The notes under the pieces were generated by a model. The model worked only from the letters and a program-made list of their open reading frames with translations, was not told where the DNA came from and ran no database searches. DNA of 64,000 bases from Alicyclobacillus sacchari (lineage in GTDB: Bacteria; Bacillota; Bacilli; Alicyclobacillales; Alicyclobacillaceae). Location: the NCBI RefSeq assembly GCF_004366795.1, contig NZ_SORF01000006.1, positions 78,993 through 142,992 on the forward strand. Direction: 5' to 3'. Made by a program: the position numbers and the translations under genes. Of this stretch, positions 1 to 6,821 are shown in pieces. Each line of letters opens with the position of its first letter. The first letter of the stretch is position 1.

Positions 1-45
1 GGAGGAACCCATGCTATGTGTTGTACTCAACAAGGCGGATCGCTA
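1..45. other. left attachment junction of the murA-inserted element
   Basis: The last bases of the recombinase gene are followed by an inverted repeat TGTTG-tact-CAACA (21-34) and then the junction. Bases 4-6 (GGA) are the 3-bp sequence shared by all three junctions (4-6, 2809-2811, 5614-5616). Bases 1-3 (GGA, read TCC on the minus strand) supply the next murA codon: joined to the murA 5' part they give Met-Arg-Ser-Ser, the usual MurA motif at this point. Confidence 0.7.
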
Positions 46-1506
46 TAGGCGATAGACGATTTCGAGCTCTGGTTCGGCATTCCGATCGCGATGAAACACG
101 CGGACTTCTTGCACGAGCTCAAGCACCGCAAGGCGCAATGCGTCTTCATCGCCGTCGAGATCGATACAGAGCCGCTGAAAACGCCTTTGTACGGCAAGCC
201 CAGGATCGCACGGGGCGTTTGCGAGCCCCGCAAGTTGCGCATCACATGCAGCCGCCTCTGTCTGCAGTTGAGACATATGACGCCGAAAGTCGGCTTCGGG
301 GACGATGCCTTGGGCATAGCCGTCGATCAGTCGGTCGATCCGCTGGCGCAGACGCCGTTGCCGTCTGCGCAAATCTGCCGCGTGCCGCTTTGAATCGATT
401 TGTGCACTGGCGATGAAATCTGCTAGGCTCAAACTCGCTGTTCCAGCGGCAAGCACCTGGCTTGTAACGCCGCGTTCAAGCTCTTCGGCATCGACGCGAT
501 TTGCCGTGCAGCCACCTGTCTGTACGTATGTGCCGCAACGGTAGATGCGGCGACGCTGACGGCCATCCTTGCGTTCATAAATCTGCCAGCCCGCATGCAT
601 ATTGGCCCCACAGTACCCACATTTGGCGATGCCGGAAAGCAGCCGCGCCGATCCCCGCGTCCGCGGCGGCAGCGACTGGCGACGCTCGAACAAGCGATTG
701 ATCTGCGCAAACTCGGCATCCGTGAGCAGGGCCTCGTGCGCCCCTGCGATGCAAATCCAGTCTTCTGGGTTGCGTTCGACGCGGGCGCTGCCGGTTCCTT
801 TCCGCCGATTCCAGACGACTGTGCCAACCAAGACCGGATTTTGAAAGAGCGTCCGAATGGCCGCCTCCGACCACAAGCGGCCGGTCTTCGAGCGCACGCC
901 GCGATCGTTCAGATACTTCGCCACCTGTCTGGCTCCTTGTCCGCTGAGCAACAGATTGGCCGCCTCGCGCACCCAGGGGGCTTCTTGCGGATGGGGTACG
1001 AGACGGCCGGCGACGAGATTGTAGCCGTAAGGCGGCTTTTGCGCGAGCGCGCCGCGTTTCGCCATCGACAACAGGTTCTCGTATACGCGCTCGGCGATCA
1101 TCTCGCGTTCGAACTCGGCGATGACAGATAAGATCTGCGCGACGAGACGCCCCATGGCCGTGCCGATCTCGAAATTTTGCCGGGTGGAACGGTAGAACAC
1201 GCCGTGTTCGTTCATCTCTTCGATCAGCTTCGCGAAATCGGCGACCCGACGTGTCAAACGATCGATCCGCGTCGTCACGACACCGGCGATTTTCCCCGCC
1301 CGAATGTCGTCCCGCAGGCTTTTCATCGCGGGGCGCTCCAGGCTTTTCGCAGAATAACCTTCGTCCCGGTAAACCGTGAATTCACCGTAGCCGTTGCCGC
1401 GGGCAAACAGGACCAATTGCTCTTCTTGCTCCACGACGCTATTGCCCTCCTGTGCCTGCTCCTCGGTCGAGACGCGCACGTACAGCGCGAGCCGCTTGTC
1501 GGTCAC
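43..1506 (-). CDS. serine recombinase (large serine integrase type), copy 1
   Basis: A 487-residue site-specific DNA recombinase that would integrate and excise the element by double-strand exchange at att sites. The N-terminal resolvase domain (about 1-150) has the nucleophile Ser13 in YVRVSTEEQ, an RIDRLTRR helix at about 80-87 and the long E-helix region. A recombinase domain follows (about 155-265), then a zinc ribbon with Cys296, Cys299, Cys324 and Cys333, then a predicted coiled coil (about 370-430). This is the order of SpoIVCA/Ccr-type enzymes. It starts at GTG, overlapping by GTGA the stop of a small upstream ORF. Its stop lies about 40 bp from the left att junction, the usual place for such a gene. 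Function is certain at family level; the target site is inferred from the junctions. Confidence 0.93.
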   Translation of the reverse strand: MTDKRLALYVRVSTEEQAQEGNSVVEQEEQLVLFARGNGYGEFTVYRDEGYSAKSLERPAMKSLRDDIRAGKIAGVVTTRIDRLTRRVADFAKLIEEMNEHGVFYRSTRQNFEIGTAMGRLVAQILSVIAEFEREMIAERVYENLLSMAKRGALAQKPPYGYNLVAGRLVPHPQEAPWVREAANLLLSGQGARQVAKYLNDRGVRSKTGRLWSEAAIRTLFQNPVLVGTVVWNRRKGTGSARVERNPEDWICIAGAHEALLTDAEFAQINRLFERRQSLPPRTRGSARLLSGIAKCGYCGANMHAGWQIYERKDGRQRRRIYRCGTYVQTGGCTANRVDAEELERGVTSQVLAAGTASLSLADFIASAQIDSKRHAADLRRRQRRLRQRIDRLIDGYAQGIVPEADFRRHMSQLQTEAAACDAQLAGLANAPCDPGLAVQRRFQRLCIDLDGDEDALRLAVLELVQEVRVFHRDRNAEPELEIVYRL

Positions 1507-1658
1507 CGCCCGCCACCCCCCGCTTCACCGGCCAACTTGCGCCGAACAAGGGGTTCGATGACCTGTCGTGCCTTCTCTCGCCATAGTTCCTCAGCATCGG
1601 CGAACGGCACCAGCGCCTGCTTCGATTCCACGTAAATCCACGAGGCGCGCACTTTCAA
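1503..1658 (-). CDS. 51-residue small protein coupled to the recombinase, copy 1
   Basis: An unannotated small ORF starts at TTG (1656-1658) with a strong ribosome site AAGGGGGG about 8 bases upstream. It ends at TGA overlapping the recombinase GTG start (GTGA), so the two are probably translationally coupled. The product begins MKVRASWIYVESKQ, is rich in charged residues in the middle (AEELWREKARQ) and ends in a Gly-rich tail. I do not recognise a family. Position and coupling make an accessory role, for example a recombination directionality factor, possible but unproven. Confidence 0.55.
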   Translation of the reverse strand: MKVRASWIYVESKQALVPFADAEELWREKARQVIEPLVRRKLAGEAGGGGR

Positions 1659-1670
1659 CGCCGCATCCCC

Positions 1671-1695
1671 CCTTACCAGACGCTATGCGGTAAGG
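1671..1695 (-). promoter_or_regulatory. stem-loop overlapping the ribosome site of the small ORF, copy 1
   Basis: CCTTACC (1671-1677) and GGTAAGG (1689-1695) form a perfect 7-bp stem with an 11-base loop. On the minus strand the 3' arm is GGTAAGG, the start of the AAGGGGGG ribosome site of the 51-codon ORF. The hairpin could mask that site and damp translation of the ORF and the coupled recombinase. No T-run follows, so it is not an obvious terminator. Confidence 0.45.
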
Positions 1696-1717
1696 GTTGT
1701 TCGCCTTGCCGGACGAG

Positions 1718-2707
1718 TCAGGCAAAGCTTTGCAGGCGATCGCGAATGGCCTGTGCGATCGCTGGCGCGTGCAAACGCCCATTTTCAATGAAAATGCGAT
1801 TGGCGTCATAGCCAGAGACAACCACGCCTGCGATAAAAATCCCTGCCACGTTGGTCTCATACGTCTGCGGATTGTACGCCGGGATGCCAGATTCCGGGTC
1901 GATCACGACGCCAAGCTCCGACAGAAACGGCGTATCCGGATGATAGCCGATGAGCGCAAGCACGTGGTCCGTGCCGATTTCTATATTCCCGTCTGGCGTC
2001 GCCACCTGCACCCTGTCCGGCGCGATGGCCGTCACACGAGACTGAAAATGAAAAGCAATGCGCTCGTGATCGATCAAGCTTTGGATTTCCGGCCGCACCC
2101 ACGGTTTGATTTTGTCGGACAAGGTGGCACCACGGTGCACCAGTGTGACATCGGCGCCGACCCTATACAGATCAATGGCCGCTTCGGCGGCGGAATTCGT
2201 CCCCCCGACGACGAGCACGCGCTGCCCATAGTAGGGGTGCGCATCGCGATAGTAGTGCTGAACGTGAGGCAAGTCTTCACCGGGGACGCGCAACTGATTG
2301 GGGTGATCGAAGTACCCGGTTGCGATCACGACCTGGCGCGCGAGCGTCCTCGACACTTGGCCGGCAAGCGTGCGGGACTGAATGGAAAACGCCTTTTGTG
2401 CATCGTCAAAGGCAATCTTCTCGACCGTCTCATACTGACGGACCGGCAACTTGAGGCGTGCGACGACAGTGCGGTAATAGGTCAAGGCTTCTTGTCGGGT
2501 CGGTTTTCCGCCCTGCGTATAAAAAGGGATATCGGCGATTTCGAGTCGCTCCGGGGTTGAGTTGAAGATCATCTGTGTGGGAAATCGGTAAATTGTCGAG
2601 GCGATGCAAGACTTCTCCAGAACGACGTGATCGATCTGGCGTTTCTGCAGTTCTACGGACACAGCCAAACCACATGGCCCGGCACCTATGACACATACGT
2701 CGTGCAT
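1718..2707 (-). CDS. ypdA: YpdA-family FAD/NAD(P) oxidoreductase (bacillithiol disulfide reductase), copy 1
   Basis: The family reduces oxidised bacillithiol (BSSB) with NADPH in the cytosol. About 329 residues: FAD-binding GAGPCG at residues 8-13, the family-typical stretch containing YRFPTQM and FNSTPE after about residue 40, a second nucleotide site VVGGTNSAAEAA, and a C-terminal GYHPDTPF / GIFIAGVV FAD segment. ATG at 2705-2707 is chosen over an upstream TTG (2731) because AGGAG lies about 10 bases before it and because homologues start just before the Rossmann motif. It lies inside the mobile element as its only obvious metabolic cargo, downstream of the element's own promoter. bshC of bacillithiol synthesis lies about 17 kb away. 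Confidence 0.88.
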   Translation of the reverse strand: MHDVCVIGAGPCGLAVSVELQKRQIDHVVLEKSCIASTIYRFPTQMIFNSTPERLEIADIPFYTQGGKPTRQEALTYYRTVVARLKLPVRQYETVEKIAFDDAQKAFSIQSRTLAGQVSRTLARQVVIATGYFDHPNQLRVPGEDLPHVQHYYRDAHPYYGQRVLVVGGTNSAAEAAIDLYRVGADVTLVHRGATLSDKIKPWVRPEIQSLIDHERIAFHFQSRVTAIAPDRVQVATPDGNIEIGTDHVLALIGYHPDTPFLSELGVVIDPESGIPAYNPQTYETNVAGIFIAGVVVSGYDANRIFIENGRLHAPAIAQAIRDRLQSFA

Positions 2708-2757
2708 CTCGAAATCGCTCCTAGCCTTCAATCATCTGTGATCTCTCCATTCCGATT

Positions 2758-2766
2758 ATTATACCA
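2758..2766 (-). promoter_or_regulatory. extended -10 promoter of the element, copy 1
   Basis: The minus strand reads TGGTATAAT, a perfect TATAAT with a TGn extension, about 50 bases upstream of the ypdA ATG. A weak -35-like TTGAGC lies 19 bases further up. It would drive ypdA, the small ORF and the recombinase independently of the host operon. Confidence 0.55.
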
Positions 2767-2784
2767 CGGCTTGTGAAACGCGGC

Positions 2785-2850
2785 TCAAAGCACAATAGGC
2801 AAGATAGGGGAACCCATGCTATGTGTTGTACTCAACAAGGCGGATCGCTA
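2785..2850. other. internal junction between tandem copies (attP-like)
   Basis: The right end of one unit meets the left end of the next at core GGA 2809-2811. This is also the sequence a circularised unit would carry. Flanking arms show short imperfect inverted similarity (CACAATAG on the left, CTATGTG on the right), as expected of an attP, plus the TGTTG/CAACA repeat at 2826-2839. Confidence 0.6.
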
Positions 2851-4311
2851 TAGGCGATAGACGATTTCGAGCTCTGGTTCGGCATTCCGATCGCGATGAA
2901 ACACGCGGACTTCTTGCACGAGCTCAAGCACCGCAAGGCGCAATGCGTCTTCATCGCCGTCGAGATCGATACAGAGCCGCTGAAAACGCCTTTGTACGGC
3001 AAGCCCAGGATCGCACGGGGCGTTTGCGAGCCCCGCAAGTTGCGCATCACATGCAGCCGCCTCTGTCTGCAGTTGAGACATATGACGCCGAAAGTCGGCT
3101 TCGGGGACGATGCCTTGGGCATAGCCGTCGATCAGTCGGTCGATCCGCTGGCGCAGACGCCGTTGCCGTCTGCGCAAATCTGCCGCGTGCCGCTTTGAAT
3201 CGATTTGTGCACTGGCGATGAAATCTGCTAGGCTCAAACTCGCTGTTCCAGCGGCAAGCACCTGGCTTGTAACGCCGCGTTCAAGCTCTTCGGCATCGAC
3301 GCGATTTGCCGTGCAGCCACCTGTCTGTACGTATGTGCCGCAACGGTAGATGCGGCGACGCTGACGGCCATCCTTGCGTTCATAAATCTGCCAGCCCGCA
3401 TGCATATTGGCCCCACAGTACCCACATTTGGCGATGCCGGAAAGCAGCCGCGCCGATCCCCGCGTCCGCGGCGGCAGCGACTGGCGACGCTCGAACAAGC
3501 GATTGATCTGCGCAAACTCGGCATCCGTGAGCAGGGCCTCGTGCGCCCCTGCGATGCAAATCCAGTCTTCTGGGTTGCGTTCGACGCGGGCGCTGCCGGT
3601 TCCTTTCCGCCGATTCCAGACGACTGTGCCAACCAAGACCGGATTTTGAAAGAGCGTCCGAATGGCCGCCTCCGACCACAAGCGGCCGGTCTTCGAGCGC
3701 ACGCCGCGATCGTTCAGATACTTCGCCACCTGTCTGGCTCCTTGTCCGCTGAGCAACAGATTGGCCGCCTCGCGCACCCAGGGGGCTTCTTGCGGATGGG
3801 GTACGAGACGGCCGGCGACGAGATTGTAGCCGTAAGGCGGCTTTTGCGCGAGCGCGCCGCGTTTCGCCATCGACAACAGGTTCTCGTATACGCGCTCGGC
3901 GATCATCTCGCGTTCGAACTCGGCGATGACAGATAAGATCTGCGCGACGAGACGCCCCATGGCCGTGCCGATCTCGAAATTTTGCCGGGTGGAACGGTAG
4001 AACACGCCGTGTTCGTTCATCTCTTCGATCAGCTTCGCGAAATCGGCGACCCGACGTGTCAAACGATCGATCCGCGTCGTCACGACACCGGCGATTTTCC
4101 CCGCCCGAATGTCGTCCCGCAGGCTTTTCATCGCGGGGCGCTCCAGGCTTTTCGCAGAATAACCTTCGTCCCGGTAAACCGTGAATTCACCGTAGCCGTT
4201 GCCGCGGGCAAACAGGACCAATTGCTCTTCTTGCTCCACGACGCTATTGCCCTCCTGTGCCTGCTCCTCGGTCGAGACGCGCACGTACAGCGCGAGCCGC
4301 TTGTCGGTCAC
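2848..4311 (-). CDS. serine recombinase (large serine integrase type), copy 2
   Basis: Identical 487-residue protein to that at 43-1506: catalytic Ser13, resolvase domain, recombinase domain, four-Cys zinc ribbon and coiled coil. GTG start coupled to the small ORF at 4308-4463. Two intact recombinase genes in tandem would let either copy catalyse excision across any pair of compatible junctions. Confidence 0.93.
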   Translation of the reverse strand: MTDKRLALYVRVSTEEQAQEGNSVVEQEEQLVLFARGNGYGEFTVYRDEGYSAKSLERPAMKSLRDDIRAGKIAGVVTTRIDRLTRRVADFAKLIEEMNEHGVFYRSTRQNFEIGTAMGRLVAQILSVIAEFEREMIAERVYENLLSMAKRGALAQKPPYGYNLVAGRLVPHPQEAPWVREAANLLLSGQGARQVAKYLNDRGVRSKTGRLWSEAAIRTLFQNPVLVGTVVWNRRKGTGSARVERNPEDWICIAGAHEALLTDAEFAQINRLFERRQSLPPRTRGSARLLSGIAKCGYCGANMHAGWQIYERKDGRQRRRIYRCGTYVQTGGCTANRVDAEELERGVTSQVLAAGTASLSLADFIASAQIDSKRHAADLRRRQRRLRQRIDRLIDGYAQGIVPEADFRRHMSQLQTEAAACDAQLAGLANAPCDPGLAVQRRFQRLCIDLDGDEDALRLAVLELVQEVRVFHRDRNAEPELEIVYRL

Positions 4312-4463
4312 CGCCCGCCACCCCCCGCTTCACCGGCCAACTTGCGCCGAACAAGGGGTTCGATGACCTGTCGTGCCTTCTCTCGCCATAGTTCCTCAGC
4401 ATCGGCGAACGGCACCAGCGCCTGCTTCGATTCCACGTAAATCCACGAGGCGCGCACTTTCAA
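4308..4463 (-). CDS. 51-residue small protein coupled to the recombinase, copy 2
   Basis: Exact repeat of the ORF at 1503-1658, with TTG start, AAGGGGGG ribosome site and GTGA overlap with the recombinase start. Family not recognised. Confidence 0.55.
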   Translation of the reverse strand: MKVRASWIYVESKQALVPFADAEELWREKARQVIEPLVRRKLAGEAGGGGR

Positions 4464-4475
4464 CGCCGCATCCCC

Positions 4476-4500
4476 CCTTACCAGACGCTATGCGGTAAGG
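4476..4500 (-). promoter_or_regulatory. stem-loop overlapping the ribosome site of the small ORF, copy 2
   Basis: Same CCTTACC/GGTAAGG 7-bp hairpin as at 1671-1695, again covering the start of the ribosome site. Confidence 0.45.
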
Positions 4501-4522
4501 GTTGTTCGCCTTGCCGGACGAG

Positions 4523-5512
4523 TCAGGCAAAGCTTTGCAGGCGATCGCGAATGGCCTGTGCGATCGCTGGCGCGTGCAAACGCCCATTTTCAATGAAAAT
4601 GCGATTGGCGTCATAGCCAGAGACAACCACGCCTGCGATAAAAATCCCTGCCACGTTGGTCTCATACGTCTGCGGATTGTACGCCGGGATGCCAGATTCC
4701 GGGTCGATCACGACGCCAAGCTCCGACAGAAACGGCGTATCCGGATGATAGCCGATGAGCGCAAGCACGTGGTCCGTGCCGATTTCTATATTCCCGTCTG
4801 GCGTCGCCACCTGCACCCTGTCCGGCGCGATGGCCGTCACACGAGACTGAAAATGAAAAGCAATGCGCTCGTGATCGATCAAGCTTTGGATTTCCGGCCG
4901 CACCCACGGTTTGATTTTGTCGGACAAGGTGGCACCACGGTGCACCAGTGTGACATCGGCGCCGACCCTATACAGATCAATGGCCGCTTCGGCGGCGGAA
5001 TTCGTCCCCCCGACGACGAGCACGCGCTGCCCATAGTAGGGGTGCGCATCGCGATAGTAGTGCTGAACGTGAGGCAAGTCTTCACCGGGGACGCGCAACT
5101 GATTGGGGTGATCGAAGTACCCGGTTGCGATCACGACCTGGCGCGCGAGCGTCCTCGACACTTGGCCGGCAAGCGTGCGGGACTGAATGGAAAACGCCTT
5201 TTGTGCATCGTCAAAGGCAATCTTCTCGACCGTCTCATACTGACGGACCGGCAACTTGAGGCGTGCGACGACAGTGCGGTAATAGGTCAAGGCTTCTTGT
5301 CGGGTCGGTTTTCCGCCCTGCGTATAAAAAGGGATATCGGCGATTTCGAGTCGCTCCGGGGTTGAGTTGAAGATCATCTGTGTGGGAAATCGGTAAATTG
5401 TCGAGGCGATGCAAGACTTCTCCAGAACGACGTGATCGATCTGGCGTTTCTGCAGTTCTACGGACACAGCCAAACCACATGGCCCGGCACCTATGACACA
5501 TACGTCGTGCAT
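4523..5512 (-). CDS. ypdA: YpdA-family FAD/NAD(P) oxidoreductase (bacillithiol disulfide reductase), copy 2
   Basis: Same 329-residue product as copy 1. ATG chosen by the AGGAG spacing. In this copy the promoter (5563-5571) is close to the truncated murA, so reading through from the dcw operon could also supply transcript. Confidence 0.88.
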   Translation of the reverse strand: MHDVCVIGAGPCGLAVSVELQKRQIDHVVLEKSCIASTIYRFPTQMIFNSTPERLEIADIPFYTQGGKPTRQEALTYYRTVVARLKLPVRQYETVEKIAFDDAQKAFSIQSRTLAGQVSRTLARQVVIATGYFDHPNQLRVPGEDLPHVQHYYRDAHPYYGQRVLVVGGTNSAAEAAIDLYRVGADVTLVHRGATLSDKIKPWVRPEIQSLIDHERIAFHFQSRVTAIAPDRVQVATPDGNIEIGTDHVLALIGYHPDTPFLSELGVVIDPESGIPAYNPQTYETNVAGIFIAGVVVSGYDANRIFIENGRLHAPAIAQAIRDRLQSFA

Positions 5513-5562
5513 CTCGAAATCGCTCCTAGCCTTCAATCATCTGTGATCTCTCCATTCCGATT

Positions 5563-5571
5563 ATTATACCA
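5563..5571 (-). promoter_or_regulatory. extended -10 promoter of the element, copy 2
   Basis: TGGTATAAT on the minus strand, identical to 2758-2766, about 50 bases before the second ypdA start. Confidence 0.55.
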
Positions 5572-5613
5572 CGGCTTGTGAAACGCGGCTCAAAGCACAA
5601 TAGGCAAGATAGG

Positions 5614-5892
5614 GGACCGCATCTTTTGCATCAGATGCATGGGAACATCTGTGCTGTGGATGGTCGACGCGTCAACCTCAATCACATCGCCATGCACAAA
5701 CACCTTTGCTCCCAATGCCCTCAGAATGTCGACCATCACGTGCACATCTTCCAAATCGGGCACGTTTTCGACGACCGTTGTACCTGGTACCATCACGGTC
5801 GCCGCCAGAATCGGCAGCGCGGCGTTTTTAGCGCCGTAGACCGACGTCTCGCCAGAGAGCGGGACGCCGCCATAGATTCTCAGCATTTCCAC
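5614..5892 (-). pseudogene. murA: murA 5' part, interrupted by the element
   Basis: UDP-N-acetylglucosamine 1-carboxyvinyltransferase makes the first committed step of peptidoglycan synthesis. Only about 93 residues are present, against about 420 for the family. With the GTG at 5892 as start (ribosome site GGGAGG 8 bases upstream) the conserved substrate residues fall at Lys22-Asn23, as in known MurA. The frame is intact to KMRS, then runs into the element. The catalytic Cys (about 115) and the rest must lie left of the window. An alternative GTG at 5901 overlaps the murB stop but has no proper ribosome spacing. Precise excision would restore the reading frame (M-R-S-S). Confidence 0.88.
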
Positions 5893-5897
5893 ACCCG

Positions 5898-6821
5898 TCA
5901 CCTCCCTGAGATTGGCTCCCCCAGCACACGCACCTCAGTTTCCAGTTCGATCCCGTACTTGTCGCGGACCACCTGCTGAGCGTGGCGAATGAGCCATAGC
6001 ACATCCGCCGCTGTCGCCTCCTCGACGTTGACGATGAAGTTGGCGTGTTTGTCGCTGATCTTGGCGCCGCCATGTTGAAATCCTTTGAGACCTGCGGCTT
6101 CGATGAGCCGCCCGGCGTGCGTGCCGTCTGGATTGCGAAACACCGATCCGCAGTTCGGCCAAGCAAGCGGCTGGGATTCGACACGCTTTTGTGACCACTG
6201 TTTCACCTGTTTCACCAAAGCGTCGCGATCGCCAGGCGACAATGCAAACTTCGCTTGCGTCACGATGCCAAAGCGGTCCTTCAAAATGCTGTAACGGTAT
6301 CCGAACTTCAGATCGGCATTCGGCAATCGCTCGATCTCGCCATCGGCGTTCATCACGTCGGCCCATTCCAATACCTCGCACGTCTCTTTGCCATACGCGC
6401 CTGCGTTCATCATCACAGCCCCACCCACGGAGCCGGGGATTCCGGTGGCGAACTCAAGCCCGGCGAGACCGTGGCGCAACGCGATGTTGGCGGCGGATAC
6501 GTACGATCTGCCCGCCATTGCGATGAGCGCGTCGCCCTCGATGTCTACCTTTGCGAATGCGTCATGCAGCTTGACGACGACGCCGCGAATCCCGCCATCG
6601 AGAACGAGCGCATTGGAACCGCGGCCGATGACCGTGATCGGCAAGCCGAGATGACGTGCGGCCAGTACCGTCCCACGCAGTTCATCGAGCGAGGCAGGGA
6701 CGACGAAATAGTCGGCCGGGCCGCCAATGCGCCAAGTGGTGTGTCGTTTCATCGGTTCGTCGCACGCGATGTTGGCAACGCCGTGCAACGTAAAAACAGA
6801 GAGGACTGCATCAGAGCCCAT
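5898..6821 (-). CDS. murB: UDP-N-acetylenolpyruvoylglucosamine reductase
   Basis: Reduces the MurA product to UDP-MurNAc with NADPH and FAD. 307 residues, normal for the short Gram-positive type. Visible are RIGGPADYF and GRGSNALV (FAD binding), GIPGSVGGAVMMNAGAYG, the YRYS substrate motif, the active-site Ser in NCGSVFRNP and a C-terminal ETEVR carrying the conserved Glu. Its stop overlaps the region of the murA start. Confidence 0.96.
   Translation of the reverse strand: MGSDAVLSVFTLHGVANIACDEPMKRHTTWRIGGPADYFVVPASLDELRGTVLAARHLGLPITVIGRGSNALVLDGGIRGVVVKLHDAFAKVDIEGDALIAMAGRSYVSAANIALRHGLAGLEFATGIPGSVGGAVMMNAGAYGKETCEVLEWADVMNADGEIERLPNADLKFGYRYSILKDRFGIVTQAKFALSPGDRDALVKQVKQWSQKRVESQPLAWPNCGSVFRNPDGTHAGRLIEAAGLKGFQHGGAKISDKHANFIVNVEEATAADVLWLIRHAQQVVRDKYGIELETEVRVLGEPISGR

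Follow-up and report, generated by a model that had tools for sequence, protein, structure and literature searches.

The closest described systems are the skin elements in sigK, SPbeta in spsM and yin in yabG, in each of which an element with a large serine recombinase splits a host gene. As with the element proposed below, the core is short and precise excision would restore the gene; circular and integrated forms can coexist (PMC4191935, PMC5025042, PMC10747680). Excision of known elements takes place in the mother cell (PMC5025042, PMC5595907, PMC4191935). The recombinase of C. difficile is constitutive and its directionality factor is mother-cell specific (PMC5025042), and a pure culture with the C. 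botulinum yin element held both integrated and circular forms (PMC10747680).

We analyzed a window of 64,000 nucleotides from Alicyclobacillus sacchari (window base 1 is G000:C6:78993), in which an element of this general build interrupts the murA gene of the dcw cluster, between murB and divIB on the minus strand. The best overall explanation, which we consider probable, is a minimal, skin-like gene-intervening element that can be excised and whose excision restores murA. The features of the locus are as follows.

1..30, no strand: attL, repeated after the scaffold gap; crossover most likely at GA, 5-6 (TC in murA sense); the arm on the chromosome side is found to the left of the gap (L004)
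4..2808, minus: element unit 1, 2805 bp, genes in the same direction as murA
43..1506, minus: large serine recombinase of unit 1, 487 aa, with Resolvase, Recombinase and Zn ribbon domains
1503..1658, minus: ~51-aa ORF of unit 1, conserved, overlaps the start of the recombinase gene; candidate directionality factor
1660..1714, minus: leader of the ~51-aa ORF, with a conserved TCCGGMAA-N18-CATA block and a possible, weak hairpin over the ribosome site
1718..2731, minus: ypdA of unit 1, putative bacillithiol disulfide reductase
2785..2835, no strand: attP, circle or tandem junction; crossover most likely at GA, 2810-2811
2809..5613, minus: element unit 2, same base sequence as unit 1; possibly a loop unrolled by the assembler
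2848..4311, minus: large serine recombinase of unit 2, copy of the unit 1 gene
4308..4463, minus: ~51-aa ORF of unit 2, copy of the unit 1 ORF
4523..5536, minus: ypdA of unit 2, putative bacillithiol disulfide reductase
5590..5640, no strand: attR; crossover most likely at GA, 5615-5616
5590..5901, minus: murA N-terminal half, murA sequence to 5616, then eight element codons and a stop
5898..6821, minus: murB, dcw cluster neighbor

The C-terminal part of murA, left of the gap, covers positions 85-416 of TIGR01072, and the N-terminal part, right of unit 2, covers positions 2-98. Insertion occurred at one conserved serine codon, the same in all ten carriers found: the window strain, A. hesperidum, A. 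tengchongensis, five genomes of the acidocaldarius group, G005 and G021. Each has an N-half reading KMR-S-P and a C-half reading M(G/P)S-SIFLMGP, and joining the halves gives KMR-S-SIFLMGP in frame in 10/10, the same as in five intact relatives. The locus hence shows, by comparison with these five, a split host gene whose frame precise excision restores. What attL and attR have in common varies by species (TCC, GGTC, GGTCC or TTCC), and TC is present in all ten pairs. The attB site is an inverted repeat, AAGATGnnn-TC-nnnCATCTT, with TC at its center, so that the short shared core and the central dinucleotide within inverted repeats are those of a large serine recombinase site. From these alignments, TC (GA on the plus strand) is most likely the crossover dinucleotide. 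A search of 15 genus genomes with the attB pattern gave no match at the murA of carriers, and the attP pattern found none in viral contigs. An insertion sequence or composite transposon is ruled out by the serine recombinase, the non-identical att sites and the codon-precise insertion.

The unit holds only three genes, ypdA, the ~51-aa ORF and the large serine recombinase, all in the direction of murA. The recombinase has the domains of its class and keeps the catalytic serine (YVRVST). Directly before it, in every carrier where this could be read, including G005 and G021, lies the ~51-aa ORF, which had no family match and, when the window strain is compared with A. hesperidum, has a dN/dS of 0.04 (41 codons); from its position and size, its product is a candidate directionality factor. 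The leader block of this ORF has constant spacing, and covariation in the hairpin amounts to one compensatory pair, which is not significant. Because the directionality factor of C. difficile is mother-cell specific, this leader is the place to look for control. Inspection by eye revealed no convincing sigma-E/K promoter before the recombinase. An extended -10 motif, TGnTATAAT, occurs upstream of ypdA in most carriers (~5480-5490 and ~2675-2685 of the window, minus strand), a motif that suggests a vegetative promoter inside the element, upstream of ypdA.

The YpdA protein scores 439 bits against TIGR04018, above the curated cut-off of 339.9, and no gene outside the element passes this cut-off in the window-strain genome. 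The only ypdA lies within the element in 9/9 genus carriers with an assembled element; G007 and G012, which have an intact murA, carry ypdA elsewhere in the genome. The element has no replication gene, and no phage structural or conjugation genes were found in the unit, which therefore does not qualify as a prophage or conjugative element.

A. tengchongensis and A. hesperidum carry one copy each, at 85% recombinase identity and with no N, and G002, G010, G011, G013 and G014 of the acidocaldarius group have the same layout in single copy at 51-55% identity (we take G002 to be A. acidocaldarius DSM 446 and G010 to be A. acidocaldarius Tc-4-1). Where both ends were measured, the unit is 2805-2877 bp long. 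G005 has a 7.0-kb version (L041 1805-8845) in which the order of recombinase and ypdA is reversed and a GGDEF protein and a chemotaxis receptor are added. G021, from another genus, has a 9.2-kb element at the same murA site (L098 2219-11695); it encodes a P-type ATPase of 1530 aa along with a related recombinase and small ORF, and lacks ypdA. In five members of the genus, the murA at this position is uninterrupted. As a separate observation, divIB of A. tengchongensis (L005 8557-9431) is read in two overlapping frames matching positions 1-86 and 71-290, likely a frameshift or sequencing error.

Trees of the recombinase, of the murA C-half and of neighboring genes recover the same two main groups with strong support, and because they agree, the element was probably present in the common ancestor of both groups. 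The element has been inherited with the chromosome in one clade. The trees give no resolution of the order inside the two groups, and they place G005 with G021, perhaps through a long-branch effect. In a class-wide recombinase search of 398 genomes, the murA-linked recombinases scored 801-885 bits and the next best 436; none of the other recombinase loci checked lay beside murA, and a possible additional split murA in G047 was not confirmed. The closest relative not linked to murA, in G326 (L121 1099-2946), lies tail to tail with a small gene that by eye resembles cotJB, and may belong to a further element, next to a spore-coat gene. Viral contigs, phages and plasmids yielded only recombinase relatives that were too distant (22-29%, 34% and 33%, respectively) and no phage that targets murA.

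Self-comparison of the window at an offset of 2805 gave zero mismatches between bases 4-2811 and 2809-5616, with mismatches at bases 1 and 3 and from 2812 onward, and ~25% identity at neighboring offsets. The preliminary description had reported two base-identical 2805-bp units in tandem, and units 4-2808 and 2809-5613 agree with it exactly, with no divergence between them. Its identification of the internal junction as attP is borne out as well, as a perfect attP joins the units, and so is that of a site-specific element in the order attL-unit-attP-unit-attR.

Immediately before window base 1 lies a scaffold gap of 96 N (L004 9898-9993), and the last 99 bp left of this gap are identical to window bases 1-99. 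The first three bases of the overlap (GGA) belong to the chromosome side of attL and the next 96 are common to attL and attP. K=96 is the ALLPATHS-LG default, and a gap of 96 with a shared stretch of 96 is what a branch in a K=96 k-mer assembler is expected to leave. The gap with its 3+96-bp end overlap is the signature of an assembly-graph branch, and the left edge of unit 1 is a contig end; therefore, the assembly does not fix the copy number of the unit. Conversely, the attP junction (~2785-2835) is contiguous and contains no N, which requires junction-spanning reads, so that molecules bearing attP, either a circle or a true tandem, must have existed. A single integrated copy without a circle cannot yield reads that cross attP.

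The doubling is probably the way in which the assembler drew a mixture of integrated and circular copies, and would therefore be indirect evidence that the element excises. We take an unrolled assembly loop to be clearly likelier than a stable duplication, and the attP probably came from excised circles rather than from a stable tandem. The alternative is that an excised circle recombined into a resident copy, by homology or through the recombinase, leaving at least two units in the chromosome. The assembled order is exactly the one that this predicts, but a contig break with a k-mer-like overlap at the loop entrance, units without divergence and a single copy in 9/9 other carriers make a true tandem rather unlikely. 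For the origin that the preliminary description put first, integration of a circle beside a resident copy, the expected order is thus present, and nothing specifically favors it; its second option, an assembler product, is the better explanation given the 3+96-bp overlap and the nine single-copy carriers. That description had the type of element right and was silent on the split murA, the conservation across the genus and the restoration of murA on excision. Whether loop or true duplication, the tandem reveals attP.

The assembly of G009 has breaks at the same place. Its N-half contig (C28) stops a few bases short of the crossover, at CATGCAGAAGATGA, its C-half contig (C59) begins at GGGGTCTTCCATC, a few bases from it, and neither ypdA nor the element recombinase was found in this assembly. 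It is possible that a short contig was dropped there for another reason. Taken together, the attP in the window assembly and the breaks in G009 may be signs of excision.

Under the preferred reading of an excisable element, the recombinase would cross over at the TC of attL and attR with the help of a directionality factor, the segment would leave as an attP circle and murA would be rejoined in frame. Integrated copies and attP-bearing molecules would have been present together in the sequenced culture, and the assembler would have rendered the loop as a pair of units in tandem, leaving a gap where the loop is entered.

The window strain has a second, complete murA (G000:C3:138232-139488), beside spoIID and spoIIQ and between ATP-synthase genes and spoIIID-/mbl-like genes (names read by eye), surroundings that are those of murAA in B. 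subtilis. In the C-terminal part, the two MurA proteins share 48% identity. Growing cells would then use MurAA and keep YpdA. Since the circle lacks a replication gene and takes the only ypdA with it, excision would be safe only where the cell leaves no descendants or the circle soon reintegrates. By analogy with known elements, it might be confined to a non-reproducing cell, the sporulation mother cell, where the loss of ypdA would be harmless and the extra MurA could serve engulfment or cortex synthesis; by this argument the mother cell fits as the site of excision. Efficient engulfment in B. subtilis depends on MurAB, its second MurA paralog, although the same study found no general correlation between the number of MurA paralogs and sporulation (PMC9600426). 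The interrupted murA might act in sporulation as MurAB does, if it is the orthologue of that paralog. As a possibility somewhat short of an even chance, we tentatively put forward a vertically maintained DNA switch that links an enzyme of cell-wall precursors to a redox enzyme: excision would activate the second MurA and at once remove the only ypdA, so that firing would be limited to the mother cell as a terminal cell.

Excision could also be non-developmental, a low-level reversible phase switch in growing cells between murA off with ypdA present and murA on with ypdA lost. Mixed-form signs appeared in two genome projects whose cultures are not known to be sporulating, but routine cultures of spore formers include sporulating cells, and growing cells that excise would be left with no ypdA, as the circle has no replication gene; we regard this as unlikely.

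Separately made halves might instead work together as a split MurA without any excision. Every carrier has an in-frame ATG two codons before the junction, and in most the recombinase stop lies 15-49 nt upstream of the junction, where coupling would be possible. However, no consistent ribosome site precedes this ATG, which belongs to the attP arm, the N-half tail past the crossover varies between groups (SPILPIVL, SPMRRELL, SPM, SPNFS) and in G005 the recombinase stop is 1245 nt away from the junction, which makes a split enzyme very unlikely.

Pairwise dN/dS in carriers is 0.045-0.117 for the murA C-half and 0.075-0.163 for the N-half, next to 0.047-0.154 for murA of intact relatives, 0.107-0.133 for the recombinase and 0.083-0.117 for ypdA. 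No carrier has a stop or frameshift in either half, and as judged from substitution patterns both halves are under strong purifying selection at distances up to dS near 1; decay of murA was rejected on these values. A selfish, (nearly) immobile integrase element sitting in a dispensable, decaying paralog, which the second complete murA might allow, is hardly credible against such strong selection and the intact frames of both halves. The "truncated murA" pairs in Alicyclobacillus are probably not pseudogenes.

If the excision reading is true, programmed excision can be studied in Alicyclobacillus on a model of three genes and 2.8 kb whose two sites are known to the base, and the same layout is available in Alicyclobacillus species with complete genomes. 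The supply of peptidoglycan precursors would be switchable by DNA rearrangement, a dcw-cluster peptidoglycan gene would undergo developmental rearrangement by a three-gene element, and an integrase element would have become fixed in its host because it carries a gene that the host needs. What looks like a tandem repeat in a draft genome can be a trace of excised circles.

Among known systems, skin, SPbeta and yin are prophage-like and lie in sporulation genes, whereas the murA element is 2.8 kb long, lacks phage genes, targets a dcw peptidoglycan-precursor gene and carries the only ypdA. The gin element in gerE of Bacillus cereus resembles it in being non-phage and in having a serine recombinase, which in gin works with a small accessory factor as may also be the case here (PMC5595907), but gin is 28.6 kb long, has 31 genes and three recombinases and occurs in some strains only, whereas the murA element has three genes and is clade-wide across species. 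The prophage of Alicyclobacillus phage MMB025 in sigK comes from the same genus, likewise has a serine recombinase and interrupts a host gene, with excision proposed (PMC13141910); unlike the murA element, it is a full infectious phage, in a different gene and one species. XisF of the fdxN element and CcrB/CcrC are the best-scoring NCBIfam neighbors of the recombinase, at 158-172 bits, far below the cut-offs of 375 and 900, and their targets and hosts differ. The open-access literature yielded no report of an intervening element in murA. The kind of element is known; what is new is that the murA element has this target, consists of three genes, contains the only ypdA and is fixed across species.
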